NCBI RefSeq assembly: GCF_023702675.1 | Contig: NZ_CP098478.1 | Coordinates: forward strand, 3,658,001-3,722,000 | Length of the DNA: 64,000 bases | Source of the DNA: Acinetobacter sp. C26M | Lineage (GTDB): Bacteria > Pseudomonadota > Gammaproteobacteria > Pseudomonadales > Moraxellaceae | Reading direction: 5' to 3' | Shown here: in pieces, positions 1,123 to 59,745 of the stretch | Numbering within the stretch: position 1 is the first letter of the stretch | Layout of the letters: every line of letters starts with the position of its first letter | Made by a program: the position numbers and the translations under genes | Notes under the pieces: model-generated | What the model saw: only the letters and a program-made list of their open reading frames with translations | What the model was told of the DNA's origin: nothing | The model's database searches: none

Positions 1123-1758
1123 TTGATCACTGTTCTCGTTGTTGATGATCATGAACTCGTGCGCACAGGTATATGTCGTATGTTGGAAGACCACCCCGAT
1201 GTAGACGTCATTGGACAAGCCGAATCGGGTGAAGAAGCCATTGCTATAGTCCGTCAAAAGCACCCTCAGGTCGTATTGTTAGATGTGAATATGCCTGGTA
1301 TTGGCGGAGTGGAAACTACTCGTCGCTTATTACAAAGCGCACCTGAAACAAAAGTGATCGCTGTCAGTGGTCTTGCCGAAGAACCATACCCTTCACTGCT
1401 ATTAAAAGCAGGAGCGAAAGGCTACATCACTAAAGGTGCACCAATTTCTGAAATGGTTCGTGCTATTAATAAAGTGATGCAAGGCGGAAAATACTTTAGT
1501 GCAGATATTGCGGAACAATTAGCGAGCTCATATCTTTCGGATACGCAACAATCACCTTTCGATGCACTGTCAGAACGTGAGATGCAAGTCGCCATGATGG
1601 TCGTGAATTGTATTAGTGCCCAAGAAATCGCTGACAAATTATTCGTAAGCGTAAAAACTGTAAATACCTATCGGTATCGTATTTTTGAAAAATTGAGTAT
1701 TGATAGCGATGTCAAACTCACTCATCTTGCGATTCGTTATGGACTCATTAAACCTTAA
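1123..1758 (+). CDS. gacA: Response regulator GacA/UvrY (LuxR/FixJ type)
   Basis: A 211-residue two-domain regulator. The receiver domain (about 1-120) has the acidic pocket D8/D9, phospho-acceptor D54 in LLDVN, and a conserved Lys near residue 104. A LuxR-type helix-turn-helix follows (about 145-205; SEREMQV...SVKTVNTYRYRIFEKL). The start is TTG at 1123, supported by a strong AAGGAGG at 1111-1117 with 5-nt spacing; no better ATG exists. Length and sequence fit the GacA/UvrY/LetA family, which responds to a GacS/BarA-type hybrid kinase (not in this window) and activates genes of CsrA/RsmA-sequestering RNAs. Two such RNA genes with GacA-type upstream palindromes are found near 58-59 kb. It sits upstream of pilSR, but functional coupling to pili is not shown. 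Confidence 0.9.
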   Translation: MITVLVVDDHELVRTGICRMLEDHPDVDVIGQAESGEEAIAIVRQKHPQVVLLDVNMPGIGGVETTRRLLQSAPETKVIAVSGLAEEPYPSLLLKAGAKGYITKGAPISEMVRAINKVMQGGKYFSADIAEQLASSYLSDTQQSPFDALSEREMQVAMMVVNCISAQEIADKLFVSVKTVNTYRYRIFEKLSIDSDVKLTHLAIRYGLIKP

Positions 1759-1775
1759 AATAACAGTAAGCGCCT

Positions 1776-3341
1776 ATGTTAGGGAAAATTGCGTCGTCAG
1801 TTTCACAAACGGTCTATCGGCTTGGGGTTTGGTATAGCGGCTATCGGCTGATCATCTCGATTAGCCTGTTGTTAATTTATTTACTCACCGCCGAACAACT
1901 TTCCAGCAACTATGTTTATCCCTTCTTATATTTTTACACTTTAATTTGCTATATCACATTCAACATTTTTCAACTCTTTTTACTACAACTTGTTCCAATT
2001 CAAATCTCCAAGCAGCTGATTTTTATCTTTCTGATTGATGTCATTTGTCTGAGTTTAATCACCTTCTCTGCAGGTGGCCCAAATCTGCAACTCAGCTTAC
2101 TCTATGTCATTATTATTTTTTCTTCTGCGATTTTATTAAATGCTCACCTATCGCTGATCATTACTTTATTTGCCGTCATTATGGTGGTTTACCAGCGTTT
2201 TTTAGGTGACTTTTTTGCTGTTAATAATTTAAACCACCTCGGCAATAGTATTTTTCTCGCTTTCTTGTTTTTTGTAGTCCATGCCATTGGTCGCATCGCA
2301 GTCCAACGTTTTAAAATTTTAGAAACCTTAACTTTTCATCAGTCGATTGAAATCCACCAACTGCAAAATATTAACCGCTATATCTTAGAACAGATCGAAG
2401 ATGGTTATTTGGTACTGGATGAAAGCAATCATATTGTCTTAACCAATCCCGCAGCCAATACCTTATTAGGTATCCATTTACCAGTCTCTTTAGAAAAAAC
2501 ACCGCTGATTAAATTACAACCTGACCTGTTTGAACTTGTCCAATTCAGTGATCTAGAAGATGGCGAAGAATTTAGTTTTGAATCGCAACAAAGCCCATAT
2601 ACCATCAATGTTCGTGTTAAACATTTGATTGTGCCAGAACATGCCTTGGTCTTATTAATCTTAAAAGATGCACAAAAGCTGACTCAACAAGTCCAACAGC
2701 TAAAACTTGCCGCACTGGGTCAACTTTCTGCCAGTATTGCGCATGAAATTCGCAATCCTTTGGCTGCGATTGTACAAGCCAATGAACTATTTAAAGACAG
2801 TGATCCGCATCAACAAGAAATGCTGTCCCGCATGATCAATAAACAGGCCAAACGGATTGATAGTATCGTGCAAGATACCTTAGCAATGGCACGGAATAAA
2901 CCTACCGAATCACAAGAAATTGATCTAAGCTCTTTTTTTGAAAGTTTACTCAATGAAGATCTAACCGATGCTAAACAACAAATTCAAATTCAACTGACAG
3001 AACAGACCAGCATTTTATTTGATGAAAAACAATTACGCCAAGTGCTGATTAATTTAATTCGAAATGCATTACGACATAATGCAACTGACGCTCCTTATAT
3101 TGAAGTCGAAGTGCACGAAAAAGATGGTCGAACTTGCATTGATGTCATCGATTTTGGGACGGGTGTCTCAAAACGAGATATTTCTCAACTATTCAAACCA
3201 TTTTTTAGTACCGAAATTAAAGGAACTGGTTTAGGATTGTATTTGTCTCACACATTTTGTGAGGCCAATCATGCAAAGCTCACCTATATAGAGCGACAAC
3301 AAGGAGCATGCTTCAGGATTGAATGCTCTAAAATTCATTGA
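1776..3341 (+). CDS. pilS: Sensor histidine kinase PilS
   Basis: A 521-residue membrane kinase. The N terminus carries about six hydrophobic helices (residues about 25-175). A PAS-like linker follows (about 195-295), then the HisKA dimerisation domain with the H-box AHEIRNP (His near 322) and the HATPase domain with N box (LIRNALRH), G1 (DFGTG) and G2 (GTGLGL). The six-helix sensor and the adjacent sigma-54 activator identify it as PilS, which in Pseudomonas senses PilA in the inner membrane and controls type IV pilin transcription through PilR. It begins 17 bp after gacA and ends 22 bp before pilR. Confidence 0.92.
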   Translation: MLGKIASSVSQTVYRLGVWYSGYRLIISISLLLIYLLTAEQLSSNYVYPFLYFYTLICYITFNIFQLFLLQLVPIQISKQLIFIFLIDVICLSLITFSAGGPNLQLSLLYVIIIFSSAILLNAHLSLIITLFAVIMVVYQRFLGDFFAVNNLNHLGNSIFLAFLFFVVHAIGRIAVQRFKILETLTFHQSIEIHQLQNINRYILEQIEDGYLVLDESNHIVLTNPAANTLLGIHLPVSLEKTPLIKLQPDLFELVQFSDLEDGEEFSFESQQSPYTINVRVKHLIVPEHALVLLILKDAQKLTQQVQQLKLAALGQLSASIAHEIRNPLAAIVQANELFKDSDPHQQEMLSRMINKQAKRIDSIVQDTLAMARNKPTESQEIDLSSFFESLLNEDLTDAKQQIQIQLTEQTSILFDEKQLRQVLINLIRNALRHNATDAPYIEVEVHEKDGRTCIDVIDFGTGVSKRDISQLFKPFFSTEIKGTGLGLYLSHTFCEANHAKLTYIERQQGACFRIECSKIH

Positions 3342-3363
3342 TTAAATTAGGTTTCTCGGGGAA

Positions 3364-4800
3364 ATGGCAACAAAACAACCACTCGTCTTACTGGTAGATG
3401 ACGAAGAAGATTTATGTCTTCTAATGCAAATGACGCTTGCGCGTATGGGCATCAAGACACATCTCGCCTATCGGGTTGAACAAGCAAAAAAATTCTTTAC
3501 TGAGTTTCAGTATGATGCTTGTTTAACAGATTTAAACCTTCCTGATGGTAATGGTCTGGATCTGGTCAAACATGTGACACAGAACTATCCCAATACCCCT
3601 ATTGCGGTGTTGACTGCCTATGGCAATATGGATATTGCCATTGCTGCGTTAAAAGCAGGCGCATTTGACTTTGTCAGTAAACCTGTCAACCAAATGCACT
3701 TAGACCAATTAATTCAAAAAGCATTGAATCGTCCACAGCCAGAACAAGAAGCTGCTGAAACGGCTTTAGAAAATAAGTTGCTAATTGGACGTTCTGCACC
3801 CATTCAACAGTTACGCATCGCTTTAAAGAAAATTGCACGTTCTCAGGCGCCTGTATTTATTACCGGTGAATCAGGAACAGGTAAAGAAGTTGTTGCGAAT
3901 TTGGTACATCGCTTGAGTAACCGTAGTGAAGGACCTTTTATTGCCATTAACTGTGGTGCGATTCCAACAGAATTGATGGAAAGCGAGCTGTTCGGACATA
4001 AAAAAGGCAGTTTCACTGGTGCAACGCAGGATAAGCAAGGCCTGATTCTTTCCGCACATGGCGGTAGTTTATTCTTGGATGAAATCGCTGAACTGCCTTT
4101 AAATATGCAGGTTAAATTACTGCGTGCTGTACAGGAAAAGAAAATTCGCCCAGTCGGTTCAGATCAAGAAATCGATGTGGATTTCCGTGTGATTAGTGCC
4201 AGCCACCAAGACTTGGAGTTGTTGGTACAACAAGGTCGTTTCCGACAAGATTTATTCTTCCGTATTCATGTCATGGATATTGTGCTGCCTCCTTTACGTG
4301 AACGTGGGCAAGATATTCTGTTATTGGCGAATCACTTTATTCAAAAGATTAGTCAAGAATGGGATCTACCTGCGAAATCACTGTCTTCACGTGCAGAGCA
4401 GTTCTTATTGCAGCAATATTTTCCAGGTAATGTGCGTGAATTACGCAATATCATTGAACGTGCAATCACCCTCAGTGATGATGACAATATTGACTTGGCA
4501 CATCTCCAGACTGCACCTTTACGCAGTTCATTGGCAAACCCAACTGCTTCATTTACCAATGCTTCACCAGAAGAAGTAGAGCCCGTATCGCATTCTGCCA
4601 GCCCAGCGATGAGCTCGAAAAAGCTTCCACCTGAAGGTTTGGAACGTTATTTAGAGAATATTGAAAAAGAAATTCTTCTAAATGCACTGAACCTCACGCA
4701 TTGGAATCGAACTTTAGCTGCGAAGAAGTTAGGTATGACCTTTCGCTCGCTACGTTATCGTTTGAAGAAGTTTGGTTTAGATACTGAAGATGATGAATAA
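3364..4800 (+). CDS. pilR: Sigma-54-dependent response regulator PilR
   Basis: A 478-residue NtrC-family activator. The receiver domain (1-120) has D56 as probable phospho-acceptor. The AAA+ domain (about 140-380) has Walker A GESGTGKE at 168-175, the sigma-54-contacting loop as GSFTGA (Ser in place of the usual Ala), Walker B (SLFLDE) and an arginine-finger region (PLRERGQD). A Fis-type helix-turn-helix lies at the C terminus (about 435-470; NRTLAAKKLG). The partner is PilS just upstream and the family target is the pilA sigma-54 promoter, which is not in this window. Translation starts at ATG 3364. A bidirectional terminator follows. Confidence 0.92.
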   Translation: MATKQPLVLLVDDEEDLCLLMQMTLARMGIKTHLAYRVEQAKKFFTEFQYDACLTDLNLPDGNGLDLVKHVTQNYPNTPIAVLTAYGNMDIAIAALKAGAFDFVSKPVNQMHLDQLIQKALNRPQPEQEAAETALENKLLIGRSAPIQQLRIALKKIARSQAPVFITGESGTGKEVVANLVHRLSNRSEGPFIAINCGAIPTELMESELFGHKKGSFTGATQDKQGLILSAHGGSLFLDEIAELPLNMQVKLLRAVQEKKIRPVGSDQEIDVDFRVISASHQDLELLVQQGRFRQDLFFRIHVMDIVLPPLRERGQDILLLANHFIQKISQEWDLPAKSLSSRAEQFLLQQYFPGNVRELRNIIERAITLSDDDNIDLAHLQTAPLRSSLANPTASFTNASPEEVEPVSHSASPAMSSKKLPPEGLERYLENIEKEILLNALNLTHWNRTLAAKKLGMTFRSLRYRLKKFGLDTEDDE

Positions 4801-4841: not shown

Positions 4842-6017
4842 TTAATAGCGACTTTTTAAAACTAAATCGGTGACATGTTCGAGATAATTATCTTCTTTCA
4901 TCTCAGCAGATAATGCATAGGTCTGATTTGGCTGAATACCTTGACCTTCAATCATATTGCCATTGGGGGTGTAATAATGTGAGACCGTCATTTGCAATGC
5001 AGCACCACTCGGTAAAGGGAATAACTTTTGTACCACGCCTTTACCATAACTATTTTCGCCTACCACCCATGCCCGCTTATGCTCTTTTAATGCCGCAGTA
5101 AAGACTTCCGCTGCAGATGCAGAGCGACGGTTAATAAGAATGCCTAATTTCATATTCTGAAATTCATTGGAAGGAAGTGCTTGGAATTGTTGATCACCTT
5201 CAGAACGGCTTTTCGTCGTGACAATTAAACCCTGATTTAAAAATAAGTCTGCAGCTTCGACTGAGGCTGAAAGTAAGCCACCTGGATTATTACGTAAATC
5301 GAACACCACAGCCTTAAGTTTGGTCGAACTATATTCTTCAATCAAACGCTTAATTTCATTGGCTGTATCTTGCTGAAAAACACGTATTTTCAGTACCAGT
5401 ACCTGATTATGTAATAAAACTGGTTCAATATCAGTCTCGACTTTCTTGTTTCTCACCAAAATGGTCGTACTATTATTCTCTGTTTGTATTTGTACAGTAC
5501 TTCCAATCGAACCGTAAAGCAGACCCTGTACTTGATCCTGATTTAAACTTTTAAGCTCTTGGTTATCCACTTTTAGAATGACTTGCCCATTGCGTAAACC
5601 GAGTTTACTCGAATCTGAACCTGACTTTAGATCTTGGATCTGCCACGTTTTCGAATGCGCATCATAATTTAAATTGAAATCGACAGATGCTAAATCACCT
5701 TCTGTATATTGAATCAGTTGACGATATTCTTCTGCAGATAAATAGCGGGAGTAACGATCTAGACCACTGACCAAACCTTTAATGGACTGTTGGAATAACG
5801 CATCATCTGACTTTTTATCGACATAGTTATCTTTAACAATGCCATAAATCTGTACAAATTGTTGAATGGACTCAATTGGAACTTCAGCATTACTCGACTG
5901 TGTTTCATCATTCGACCATCCTGAAGAATGGGGAACTGGCGCAGCTGAAAGACTATGTCCCCAACACATCAACAAACTTGCACATAACGCTCGGTAGATG
6001 TTGTTGTGTTGGGTCAT
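4842..6017 (-). CDS. ctpA: S41-family C-terminal processing peptidase
   Basis: A 391-residue exported serine protease. A signal peptide (cleavage near LSA-AP) is followed by an N-terminal helical region, a PDZ domain (about 115-190) and a tail-specific protease domain. The catalytic Ser is predicted at 301 in SASAAE and the catalytic Lys at 326 in YGKG, 25 residues apart as in E. coli Tsp. The length is that of the CtpA class and shorter than Tsp/Prc. It probably degrades periplasmic proteins such as cell-wall hydrolases. It follows gpmI by 9 bp on the same strand, as in many gamma-proteobacteria, so it is probably co-transcribed. Confidence 0.87.
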   Translation of the reverse strand: MTQHNNIYRALCASLLMCWGHSLSAAPVPHSSGWSNDETQSSNAEVPIESIQQFVQIYGIVKDNYVDKKSDDALFQQSIKGLVSGLDRYSRYLSAEEYRQLIQYTEGDLASVDFNLNYDAHSKTWQIQDLKSGSDSSKLGLRNGQVILKVDNQELKSLNQDQVQGLLYGSIGSTVQIQTENNSTTILVRNKKVETDIEPVLLHNQVLVLKIRVFQQDTANEIKRLIEEYSSTKLKAVVFDLRNNPGGLLSASVEAADLFLNQGLIVTTKSRSEGDQQFQALPSNEFQNMKLGILINRRSASAAEVFTAALKEHKRAWVVGENSYGKGVVQKLFPLPSGAALQMTVSHYYTPNGNMIEGQGIQPNQTYALSAEMKEDNYLEHVTDLVLKSRY

Positions 6018-57770: not shown

Positions 57771-57985
57771 AAGCAGCAAGTCTTTTATTTCCATTGATTT
57801 TATCTTGCATGATGTCTTTTTTAATCTCTGGCATCACCACATTAAAGGCAGTGGGTTTTATCGATCATTTCTTTGCGATGTGGATGTCAGCATGGATCGT
57901 GGCTTGGATGTTTGCCTTTCCTAGCGTATTGGTCTGCGCGCCAATTGCACAAAGATTGGTGGGCTGGATTCTAAAGAAACGCTGA
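57767..57985 (+). CDS. DUF2798 small membrane protein
   Basis: A 72-residue protein with two helices (about 5-25 and 38-60). GTG start overlapping the previous stop by 4 bp (GTGA). The pattern LILSCMMSFLISGITTL...WMSAWIVAWMFAFPSVL is the DUF2798 signature. The role is unknown; last gene of the cassette. Confidence 0.82.
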   Translation: MKAASLLFPLILSCMMSFLISGITTLKAVGFIDHFFAMWMSAWIVAWMFAFPSVLVCAPIAQRLVGWILKKR

Positions 57986-57994
57986 TTTGCACTT

Positions 57995-58012
57995 TGTAAG
58001 TAAAAGCCTACA
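57995..58012 (+). promoter_or_regulatory. GacA upstream activating sequence of sRNA copy 1
   Basis: TGTAAG-TAAAAG-CCTACA, 11 of 12 defined bases of the GacA/UvrY consensus TGTAAG-N6-CTTACA. A TATACT -10 lies at 58034-58039. Both half-sites are unchanged in copy 2, where two of the changes fall in the N6 spacer. Confidence 0.85.
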
Positions 58013-58045
58013 ATAACTGTGGTGATTGGCGAATATACTGAATGA

Positions 58046-58187
58046 GATAGATTCACTAATATATCAATCATAGAGAGATAGGATGTCTCATTCAGAACAA
58101 CAAGAAACACAGGATGTGGTCGTTGACAGGAGTTGGCGGCAAGAAACCAAATATCAGAAAGCCTCGACAGGATGTCGGGGCTTTTTT
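58046..58187 (+). ncRNA. CsrB/RsmX-type CsrA-sequestering small RNA, copy 1
   Basis: An RNA of about 140 nt (5' end inferred from the -10). Four hairpins present GGA in the loop: 58075-58089 (GAGAUA-GGA-UGUCUC), 58108-58118 (CACA-GGA-UGUG), 58122-58137 (GUUGAC-AGGA-GUUGGC) and 58160-58182, a 10-bp stem with loop GGA followed by U5, which is also the terminator. Three loops read AGGAUGU, as in high-affinity CsrA sites, and all carry CAGGA or UAGGA, matching the CsrB repeat CAGGA(U/C/A)G. The GacA-type palindrome upstream supports this class. The 5' end is not certain. Confidence 0.85.
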
Positions 58188-58188
58188 A
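58160..58188 (+). terminator. Terminator of sRNA copy 1
   Basis: AGCCUCGACA / UGUCGGGGCU, 10 bp with GGA loop, followed by U5. The two copies diverge two bases after the U-run (58190 and 59068), as expected if transcription ends here. Confidence 0.9.
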
Positions 58189-58300
58189 TTCAGCTTAATA
58201 TCTAAAACTAAACGATTTACCTCTATAGATTGCATTGACTCCCATCGGCTTGCTCCCTACCATCCGCATGTTTTATCAATGACGGTCAAATTTTTCTACG

Positions 58301-58864
58301 ATGATAATTTACAAAAAATTTTCTTTTTCTCGCTTTCACATTACTTTTGCTAAATTAAGTCTCATTTTTTTAAGTACTTACTTCACTGTCGCGTGTACGA
58401 CAACCAAAGCACCTACGGTAAATCATTCCCAAAAATTATCTTCTGGTATTCAAAATGCTTTTTCCGTATCACCAACAACCGCAAATCGGGTCGCTCCAAT
58501 CATCCTGCAAACGGCTGAGCGTCACAATATTTCACCACATTTATTGGCTGCACTGATTCGTCAAGAGTCTAGCTATAGAACTCGTGCACGCTCTTCAGCA
58601 GATGCCGTGGGTTTAACCCAAGTACGCCCAAAATTTTGGCAACAGTTCTGTCCTGGTGATTTATATGATGAACACGTCAACATCAATTGTGGTGCCTACA
58701 TTTTAGCGAATTACTATCAATCGACAGGTGATTGGTCAAAAGCCCTCGGTTATTACAATGTTGGCCCTACAGGATATCGAAGAAGTCCATACATGCGTCA
58801 GCAAGCTGAACGCTATGCCAGCTCAGTCAAACGCCATGAACAAAGTTTAAAAGAAGCACTATAA
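58301..58864 (+). CDS. Lytic transglycosylase (SLT domain) lipoprotein, copy 1
   Basis: A 187-residue lipoprotein (lipobox TVAC after a hydrophobic leader). The SLT domain (about 65-180) has the catalytic Glu in IRQESSYRTRARS, GLTQVRPKFW, and the Tyr motif YYNVGPTGY. It would cleave peptidoglycan between MurNAc and GlcNAc with 1,6-anhydro product formation. It is about 60% identical to the gene at 59203. It lies about 110 bp downstream of the sRNA terminator; whether it has its own promoter is unclear. No strong ribosome site is visible. Confidence 0.85.
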   Translation: MIIYKKFSFSRFHITFAKLSLIFLSTYFTVACTTTKAPTVNHSQKLSSGIQNAFSVSPTTANRVAPIILQTAERHNISPHLLAALIRQESSYRTRARSSADAVGLTQVRPKFWQQFCPGDLYDEHVNINCGAYILANYYQSTGDWSKALGYYNVGPTGYRRSPYMRQQAERYASSVKRHEQSLKEAL

Positions 58865-58872
58865 AGCCCTGT

Positions 58873-58890
58873 TGTAAGCAAAAACCTACA
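58873..58890 (+). promoter_or_regulatory. GacA upstream activating sequence of sRNA copy 2
   Basis: TGTAAG-CAAAAA-CCTACA, the same half-sites as copy 1 with a changed spacer; 11 of 12 consensus bases. A TATACC -10 lies at 58912-58917. Confidence 0.85.
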
Positions 58891-58923
58891 ATAACTGCGG
58901 TGATTGCCGAATATACCGAATGA

Positions 58924-59065
58924 GCTAAATTCACTAATATATCAAGTATAGAGAGACAGGATGTCTCATTCAGAACAACAAGAAACACAGGATGTGGTCG
59001 TTGACAGGAGTTGGCGGCAAGAAACCAAATATCAGAAAGCCTCGACAGGATGTCGGGGCTTTTTT
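58924..59065 (+). ncRNA. CsrB/RsmX-type CsrA-sequestering small RNA, copy 2
   Basis: The same RNA architecture as copy 1, at an offset of 878 bp. Hairpins are at 58953-58967 (GAGACA-GGA-UGUCUC, perfectly paired), 58986-58996, 59000-59015 and 59038-59060 (terminator with GGA loop). In the first hairpin the U of copy 1 is a C here, changing U-G to C-G without disturbing the stem. The last 110 nt of the unit are identical to copy 1. Confidence 0.85.
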
Positions 59066-59066
59066 A
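59038..59066 (+). terminator. Terminator of sRNA copy 2
   Basis: Same 10-bp stem with GGA loop and U5 as copy 1. Confidence 0.9.
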
Positions 59067-59202
59067 TGACCCTCTCAAATCCAACCATGACCGTAAAATA
59101 ACTACTATTGACTCCCCTAAACTGAGTGCATACCATCCTTATACTTCTGTTTGGTATCGGGTTCAGGTTTTGCACATCACATCGACTTCTTCTGATCAAC
59201 AT

Positions 59203-59745
59203 ATGGCTTTTAAACCATTTGCCTCAATCATTTTAAAGATCAGCCTTGTTGTGCTTGCAATCAGTCTATCTGCATGTAGCAGTTTAAGCGGATCCTTTGC
59301 CAATCGCTCGAATCAACTTTCATCAGGCTTACAAAATGCCTATTCCGTTTCGCCTAGCACAGCAAATCGTTTATCACCCATGATTATCCAAAGTGCTGAG
59401 CGTTATGATGTATCACCGACTTTACTCGCCGCGCTGATTCGCCAAGAATCGAACTACAACAGTTCAGCGCGCTCACCAACAGGGGCAATCGGTTTAACCC
59501 AGATTATTTCCAGCCATTGGCGTCAGTCTTGCCCTGGCAATCTCTATGATGAGAATGTCAATATTAACTGTGGTGCACATGTGCTCTCGACCTACTATAG
59601 ATCTGCTGGCAGTTGGTCTAAAGCAGTGGCCTATTACAATGTCGGACCGACAGGTTACGAACGCAGTTTTTGGACGCGGCATAAAGCCAAGAAATATGCT
59701 CGTTCGGTTAAACATCACGAAAAAAACTTGAAAAAAGCACTTTAA
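59203..59745 (+). CDS. Lytic transglycosylase (SLT domain) lipoprotein, copy 2
   Basis: A 180-residue lipoprotein starting at ATG 59203 (MAFKPFASIILK...; lipobox LSAC). The frame is open from 59011, but those codons run through the sRNA terminator. The SLT domain has catalytic Glu in IRQESNYNSSARS, GLTQIISSHW and YYNVGPTGY. It is a paralog of the 58301 gene with divergence spread over the whole length. Followed by a strong terminator. Confidence 0.87.
   Translation: MAFKPFASIILKISLVVLAISLSACSSLSGSFANRSNQLSSGLQNAYSVSPSTANRLSPMIIQSAERYDVSPTLLAALIRQESNYNSSARSPTGAIGLTQIISSHWRQSCPGNLYDENVNINCGAHVLSTYYRSAGSWSKAVAYYNVGPTGYERSFWTRHKAKKYARSVKHHEKNLKKAL

Follow-up and report, generated by a model that had tools for sequence, protein, structure and literature searches.

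Multicopy hairpin RNAs of Acinetobacter as probable GacA-activated CsrA sponges, with one lineage on plasmids and dif modules

A stretch of 64,000 nucleotides (nt) from Acinetobacter sp. C26M (contig NZ_CP098478.1, positions 3,658,001 to 3,722,000; hereafter the window, in whose own numbering its features are given) contains two tandem RNA units rich in hairpins with GGA loops, which raises the question of whether such units sequester CsrA and how widely they occur on the chromosomes and mobile DNA of the genus. Judged from sequence, the units are very probably GacA-activated CsrA-sponge RNAs of the CsrB/RsmX kind, present in multiple copies. A preliminary description of the locus had proposed CsrA sequestration, and the proposal is supported by two-sided changes in the stems together with constant GGA loops, a GacA-type box at a fixed place, the presence of a single CsrA, and a GacA homologue in the window.

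A pair of RNAs with four GGA hairpins

RNA 1 (58067..58191, forward strand) and RNA 2 (58945..59069, forward strand), both predicted CsrA-sponge RNAs, fold into four hairpins each and match our custom model R1 with 139.5 bits, RNA 1 being one of the six copies from which R1 was built. The hairpins of RNA 1 lie at 58075-58089, 58108-58118, 58119-58140 and 58156-58186 (terminator), with GGA starting at 58081, 58112, 58129 and 58170; those of RNA 2 lie at 58953-58967, 58986-58996, 58997-59018 and 59034-59064 (terminator), with GGA starting at 58959, 58990, 59007 and 59048. Sequence reading and folding bear out the preliminary description, according to which each of two tandem units carries four GGA hairpins, the last of them the terminator: every GGA falls inside a predicted hairpin loop, three of the four loops per unit read AGGAUGU, as had been claimed, and the remaining loop, the third, reads AGGAGUU. 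Hairpin 4 of each unit is GC-rich and leads into a T tract, forming an intrinsic terminator that is kept across the family, and A-rich single-stranded linkers separate the hairpins in the predicted fold. With z scores of -4.05 and -4.82, RNA 1 and RNA 2 each beat 200 of 200 dinucleotide shuffles. The two units share high identity from an upstream palindrome to the T tract and diverge beyond it. Their extent had been drawn differently: the transcripts, previously put at 140 nt, come to about 120-125 nt by the model match, and homology begins not at 58046 but further upstream, at the palindromes TGTAAGTAAAAGCCTACA (57995..58012, forward strand) and TGTAAGCAAAAACCTACA (58873..58890, forward strand).

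Selection on stems and loops was assessed in 92 matches from 73 loci (87 distinct rows). In an alignment fitted to the model structure, standard pairs fill 95.4% of the pair cells, and two-sided changes occur in 26 of the 32 stem pairs, with 381 such cells against a shuffle mean of 141.8. None of five covariation measures was reached in the shuffles (0/500), and pairing falls to 39-52% when the partner is slid by 1-3 columns. GGA is kept in hairpins 1, 2, 3 and 4 in 89, 88, 88 and 87 of the 92 matches, respectively, and in all four in 81. GGA loops and stems are conserved; the linkers vary.

The pair of RNA genes first described is real, but it makes up only two of the seven copies in this genome. 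A BLAST search of the whole genome with RNA 1 found six places, and R1, built from them, added the seventh. Besides the window pair, the copies lie at 3885513 (+), 26262 (-), 97417 (+), 101456 (+) and 102875 (+); scores range from 139.5 to 92.6 bits, and the next-best match in the genome reaches only 32.1 bits. Pairs of strong matches 860-892 base pairs (bp) apart were found in twelve further genomes, which are given by our own numbers (G140, G166, G032, G096, G097, G074, G132, G025, G171, G172, G008 and G040).

The upstream box, CsrA and GacA in the genus

Both palindromes were found in a pattern scan for what we take to be the GacA box consensus. A predicted -10 element, TAATAT, lies at 58057..58062 for RNA 1 and at 58935..58940 for RNA 2 (forward strand); a consensus scan did not find that of RNA 1, whose spacing to the box is constant in the seven copies. 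All seven copies of this genome combine the palindrome with a -10-like TAATAT, TATTAT or TATCAT at nearly constant spacing. Across the family, 69 of 73 distinct loci (74 given) have a box with 0-1 mismatch 70-72 bp upstream, while of 354 control pieces, each 125 bp long, only 3 contain a box of that quality at any place. The four remaining loci are L072, with the right half only; L090, with no box; L104, where a near-box one base short was seen by eye; and L092, at a contig edge, where the box is present by eye. Unlike the palindrome alone, its fixed place before nearly every copy is beyond what chance would give in these sequences.

The gacA homologue, the predicted activator, is located in the window at 1123..1758 (forward strand). 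Its product, with a response regulator and a LuxR-type domain, is 48% identical to Escherichia coli UvrY and is the genome's best UvrY match. The gene, for which a TTG start was called, stands ahead of pilS- and pilR-type genes (window 1123-4800), and the RNA pair is 56 kb away. In A. baumannii, gacS and gacA are far apart and gacA adjoins another sensor kinase (PMC5295007). The best GacS/BarA candidate in the present genome is a hybrid kinase of 947 residues at about 648-650 kb. GacA was found at E<=1e-40 in 174 of 175 Acinetobacter genomes, and CsrA in 173 of 175, with a single match each, and in 169 of the 169 good genomes. Over its first 52 residues, the product of the one csrA in this genome has two differences from E. 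coli CsrA. Open frames around csrA span 87-142 residues in the genomes listed (87 here), compared with 61 residues for E. coli CsrA, and Acinetobacter CsrA seems to have a longer C-terminal tail.

The check by custom model that the preliminary description had recommended gave R1 matches in 170 of the 175 genomes (E<=0.001). The 1062 matches, with a median of 6 per genome including zeros and ten or more in 15 genomes, contain some hits that echo the self-complementary terminator on the opposite strand, and draft genomes may include plasmids. In a re-search of the eight highest genomes and our own, 13 copies in G126 reach 67 bits or more and 7 in the C26M genome (G000) reach 92 bits or more; copies scoring 57 bits or higher number 11 in G128 and G121, 10 in G159, 8 in G174, G109 and G108, and 7 in G113. 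A pattern scan of one genome per species, covering 84,980 species, gave 48 stretches, all titled Acinetobacter, with A. pittii, A. nosocomialis, A. calcoaceticus and A. seifertii among the species. Nine genomes of two other genera gave 1-3 weak matches in the family search (E 6.6e-5 to 6.6e-4), which were not counted as members.

A lineage on plasmids and dif modules

A BLAST search of PLSDB with RNA 1 returned 36 records at E<=1e-5, all from Acinetobacter and three of them chromosome-sized. A looser search (E<=0.01) returned 238 records, including 14 from Klebsiella, 3 from Raoultella and 1 from Enterobacter; 33 of the 238 cover at least 80% of the RNA, and three of those are chromosome-sized. 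With the box and RNA of the chromosomal copy c5 as query, 153 records were found at E<=1e-20 (152 from Acinetobacter and one from Klebsiella grimontii), of which 103 cover at least 80% of the query. Three A. baumannii records of 3.7-4.1 Mb (NZ_CP064203.1, NZ_CP104448.1 and NZ_CP077849.1) are filed in PLSDB as plasmids and distort plasmid counts.

We read 20 plasmid copies, hand-picked across the ranking. R1 matches all 20, with 52-100 bits; a box with 0-1 mismatch stands at 71 bp in 19, the exception being L159; and four or more AGGA are present in 17 and three in 3. Covariation is weaker in these 20, which are closer sequences than the 92-match set: 88.3% of cells are paired, two-sided changes occur at 7 pairs (reached in 11 of 500 shuffles), and the number of pair types is not above that of the shuffles (459 of 500 reach it). 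A site resembling what we take to be the consensus of pdif, the 28-bp XerC/D site, lies 325-343 bp upstream of the RNA in the same relative orientation in 18 of the 20 (exceptions L159 and L164); among 342,945 bases of shuffled sequence, 5 pdif-like sites turned up. Conservation extends to the spacer that separates pdif from the box, and the modules thus share an end of ~465 bp consisting of pdif, spacer, box and RNA. About 75-310 bp before the RNA, this spacer contains a conserved terminator-like inverted repeat, AGCCGACTT...AAGTCGGCT, and a second inverted repeat around TTATCCCC...GGGATAA. Beyond the RNA, the plasmids carry vapBC, higBA- or relE-type, methylase, Fic or other genes.

The chromosomal copy c5 has the same layout as the plasmid modules. 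Among copies in the genomes, a pdif-like site lies 200-450 bp upstream in 8 of 79, seven of these at 325-340 bp. A strict pattern of pdif plus box was found at 41 places in 32 of the 175 genomes, while the reversed-pattern control gave 0 in all 175; the seven pattern places compared by coordinates (in G000, G033, G113, G143 twice, G166 and G174) all precede an R1 match. Three RNA copies fall within 6 kb of one another at G000:C1:97417-103010 (L005, L065 and L071), with a pdif-like site 340 and 235 bp upstream of two of them, an apparent chromosomal landing zone for pdif modules; a cluster of three copies is also present in A. baumannii X4-300, a record of chromosome size that is listed with the plasmids. 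The window pair has no 28-bp XerC/D site within L001 (~1.5 kb either side of RNA 1). In a tree of 107 distinct copies, based on few columns and with 51 of 104 inner branches open, and used only for the lineage split, the window pair belongs to a 47-row lineage without plasmid copies, and the 20 plasmid copies belong to the other. The plasmid label requires five changes on this tree, at least four of them forced by well-supported branches.

The small mobilizable K. grimontii plasmid L168 (NZ_CP055417.1, 5585 bp) has a full copy with box and pdif at 5384-5585, beside a catalase gene; its terminator loop, ACATCCTGT, is the inverse of the usual ACAGGATGT, and one GGA is lost. In the A. bereziniae plasmid L159 (NZ_CP066122.1, 1707-2624), an IS6-family transposase gene ends just upstream of an RNA that keeps its four hairpins, and box and pdif are gone. 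We do not claim carriage by phages: of seven records under "phages", the one read (H71) has the neighbors of the window (flavodoxin-like, slt, cysK) and looks like a misnamed bacterial contig. L163 (CAKLQF020000032.1), titled "Acinetobacter phage MD-2021a", has bacterial neighbors (cueR, wrbA, slt, cysK and aac names) and is probably a misnamed bacterial contig.

Competing readings, related RNAs and significance

Downstream of RNA 1 and RNA 2, at a distance of 110-135 bp and on the same strand, lie genes for SLT-domain (lytic transglycosylase-like) proteins, at 58301..58864 and 59203..59745 (both forward strand, PF01464; the start codon of the latter is our choice). The two proteins are 56% identical, and RNA and gene were therefore likely duplicated together as one block. 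This arrangement might suggest that each unit works in cis on the SLT gene behind it, as a leader or attenuator, which we consider very improbable. A strong terminator closes each unit, the plasmid copies precede toxin-antitoxin, methylase, Fic or other genes, and the five copies of this genome outside the window (c3, c4, c5, c6 and c7) have no adjoining SLT gene, the nearest large annotated-type open reading frame behind each being on the opposite strand; it is on the neighbors of these non-window copies that the cis-acting reading was rejected. The A-rich single-stranded linkers, together with the broad Hfq network of A. baumannii (PMC12802169), would suit RNAs under GacA control whose main mode of action is base-pairing, whether helped by Hfq or not, and whose GGA loops are secondary, but the loops and stems are conserved while the linkers vary, and we think this improbable.

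A further alternative concerns the plasmid and dif-module lineage only. ColE1 cer and its Rcd RNA provide a model in which the shared end of pdif, spacer, box and RNA would serve XerC/D recombination or plasmid maintenance and not CsrA. The fixed pdif distance (325-343 bp in 18 of 20 copies), the conserved spacer with its two inverted repeats and, as we count it, the L159 copy, which lost box and pdif yet kept the RNA, speak for such a role. Diverged plasmid copies nevertheless keep the box (19 of 20) and 3-4 or more GGA hairpins, most chromosomal copies (all but 8 of 79) have no pdif nearby, and recombination or maintenance need not exclude a sponge function; we regard the exclusive form of this explanation as rather unlikely, and a sponge role for the plasmid copies as likely from their sequences. 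High copy number and a mobile lineage could finally indicate a functionless repeat family, which is hardly conceivable given the two-sided stem changes, constant loops, fixed box and near-universal presence in the genus.

Several observations weigh against the CsrA-sponge reading itself or against the units as described. The Rfam models for CsrB, RsmX, RsmY and RsmZ, another check that had been recommended, and the model for CsrC gave no match at gathering score in the window and none even at E<=10 in 57900-59200. A simple consensus scan of 57950-59150 found no terminator, and a sigma-70 consensus scan found no promoter at the expected place of RNA 1 or RNA 2; we think that A-U pairs probably draw the T tract into the stem and that the -10 TAATAT lacks a good -35. 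The palindrome alone is at chance level in the 64 kb (3 seen at <=2 mismatches versus 2.94 expected), and an alignment fitted to the model structure favors pair counts. Five of the 175 genomes have no R1 match though all five encode CsrA and GacA. These genomes are of 1.9-2.8 Mb, and a harder search gave at most 33 bits; since a perfect box stands 90 bp before one weak place (L049 in G005), diverged members are possible there. Conversely, G169, alone among the 175, has four RNA matches but no GacA at E<=1e-40, possibly through loss of gacA or an assembly gap. The last such point is a 41-kb mismatch in the comparison with A. baumannii AB5075 below.

The kind of RNA is already known in the genus. 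Two RsmA-regulating RNAs were predicted for A. baylyi ADP1 in 2017 (Table 2 of PMC5568370), and earlier work had predicted others there; genus and predicted function are the same as here, and one of the two lies at about 25 kb (-), with our copy c4 at 26 kb (-). The likeness is one of description and position: ADP1 contributes two loci of one strain in a classifier list, and the excerpts of that paper give no family, box geometry, copy number or plasmids. A 2025 paper draws an A. baylyi "CsrB-like small RNA" by citation only (PMC12442408). RNA sequencing of A. baumannii AB5075 (2016) defined Group 3 of the Art transcripts, four homologous RNAs (ABUWs005, 061, 081 and 083) that measure 128-147 nt and have conserved hairpins, at 236,876 (+), 3,057,837 (-), 3,766,134 (+) and 3,863,958 (+) (PMC5320573). 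In A. baumannii X4-300, R1 has six matches: 2,514,193 (-), 3,226,252 (+), three at 3,364,803-3,366,602 (+), and 3,717,317 (+). Their order and strands correspond, and the spacings in AB5075 and X4-300, respectively, are 708 and 712 kb for the first interval, 98 and 139 kb for the second and, for the third, which spans the origin, at least 332 kb (counted from the last table entry) and about 352 kb. The Group 3 transcripts are most likely the same RNA family, by position and not by sequence: their likeness to the window RNAs is that of expressed hairpin RNAs at agreeing positions. The source paper does not tie them to CsrA, a term with 0 occurrences there. Given these reports, the suggestion that the window RNAs may be undescribed was too strong. 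As for CsrA, A. baumannii is stated, with reference to other work, to be unable to grow on rich medium without it (PMC12802169), and laboratory evolution of A. baylyi often yielded mutations in csrA, hfq and rnd (PMC11426457).

If the units are CsrA sponges, GacS, likely the 947-residue hybrid kinase, would phosphorylate GacA, which, as the fixed box suggests, would bind the TGTAnG-N6-CnTACA box ~65 bp before the predicted start and activate a weak promoter. An RNA of ~120 nt, likely of the same family as AB5075 Group 3, would end at hairpin 4, and its GGA loops would bind CsrA, freeing CsrA-controlled mRNAs. With many gene copies (seven here, 13 strong ones in G126), output may scale with dosage. 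The second lineage, located on pdif modules of plasmids and chromosomes, would offer plasmids a handle on the CsrA regulon of the host. Whether plasmids and dif modules carry working GacA-driven CsrA-sponge genes, the total of chromosomal and plasmid copies setting host CsrA activity, seems to us evenly balanced on present sequence grounds.

Like the known CsrA-sequestering RNAs of the Csr/Rsm systems, the window RNAs combine several GGA hairpin loops and an intrinsic terminator with an upstream GacA/UvrY-type box and the presence of CsrA and GacA in the genome. Unlike the Csr/Rsm families of Rfam, they are ~120 nt long, with four fixed hairpins of which the fourth is the terminator, and RNAs of their type have many copies per genome and a dif-module and plasmid lineage. 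RsmQ of Pseudomonas (PMC9928087) also exemplifies mobile DNA that acts on the host Csr/Rsm system, but it is a plasmid-encoded CsrA-like protein, whereas the RNAs described here are predicted sponges. Acinetobacter dif modules (PMC13141974, PMC12907356 and PMC6449649) are, similarly, cassettes bounded by XerC/D sites, found on plasmids as well as chromosomes and carrying toxin-antitoxin and other genes; in word searches of these papers "RNA" occurs 0, 0 and 1 times, the one instance concerning toxins, and no small RNA is mentioned. A search of open-licence papers found no Csr sponge on mobile DNA and no tie between Group 3 and CsrA. As far as that literature goes, the new elements are the recognition of these RNAs as a family, their copy number, the fixed placement of the box, the likely identity with Group 3, and the plasmid and dif-module lineage.

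None of the Rfam families is matched by the RNAs that would restrain CsrA in Acinetobacter; with their genes, box and copy numbers now listed, the Gac-Csr circuit of the genus becomes open to experiment, also in the laboratory strain ADP1. If the reading is true, few genomes would have a larger set of Csr-sponge genes, and the plasmid copies, tapping the GacS/GacA switch of the host, would represent the first case of a Csr sponge on mobile DNA. The copies on dif modules suggest a link between plasmid and host at the level of RNA.
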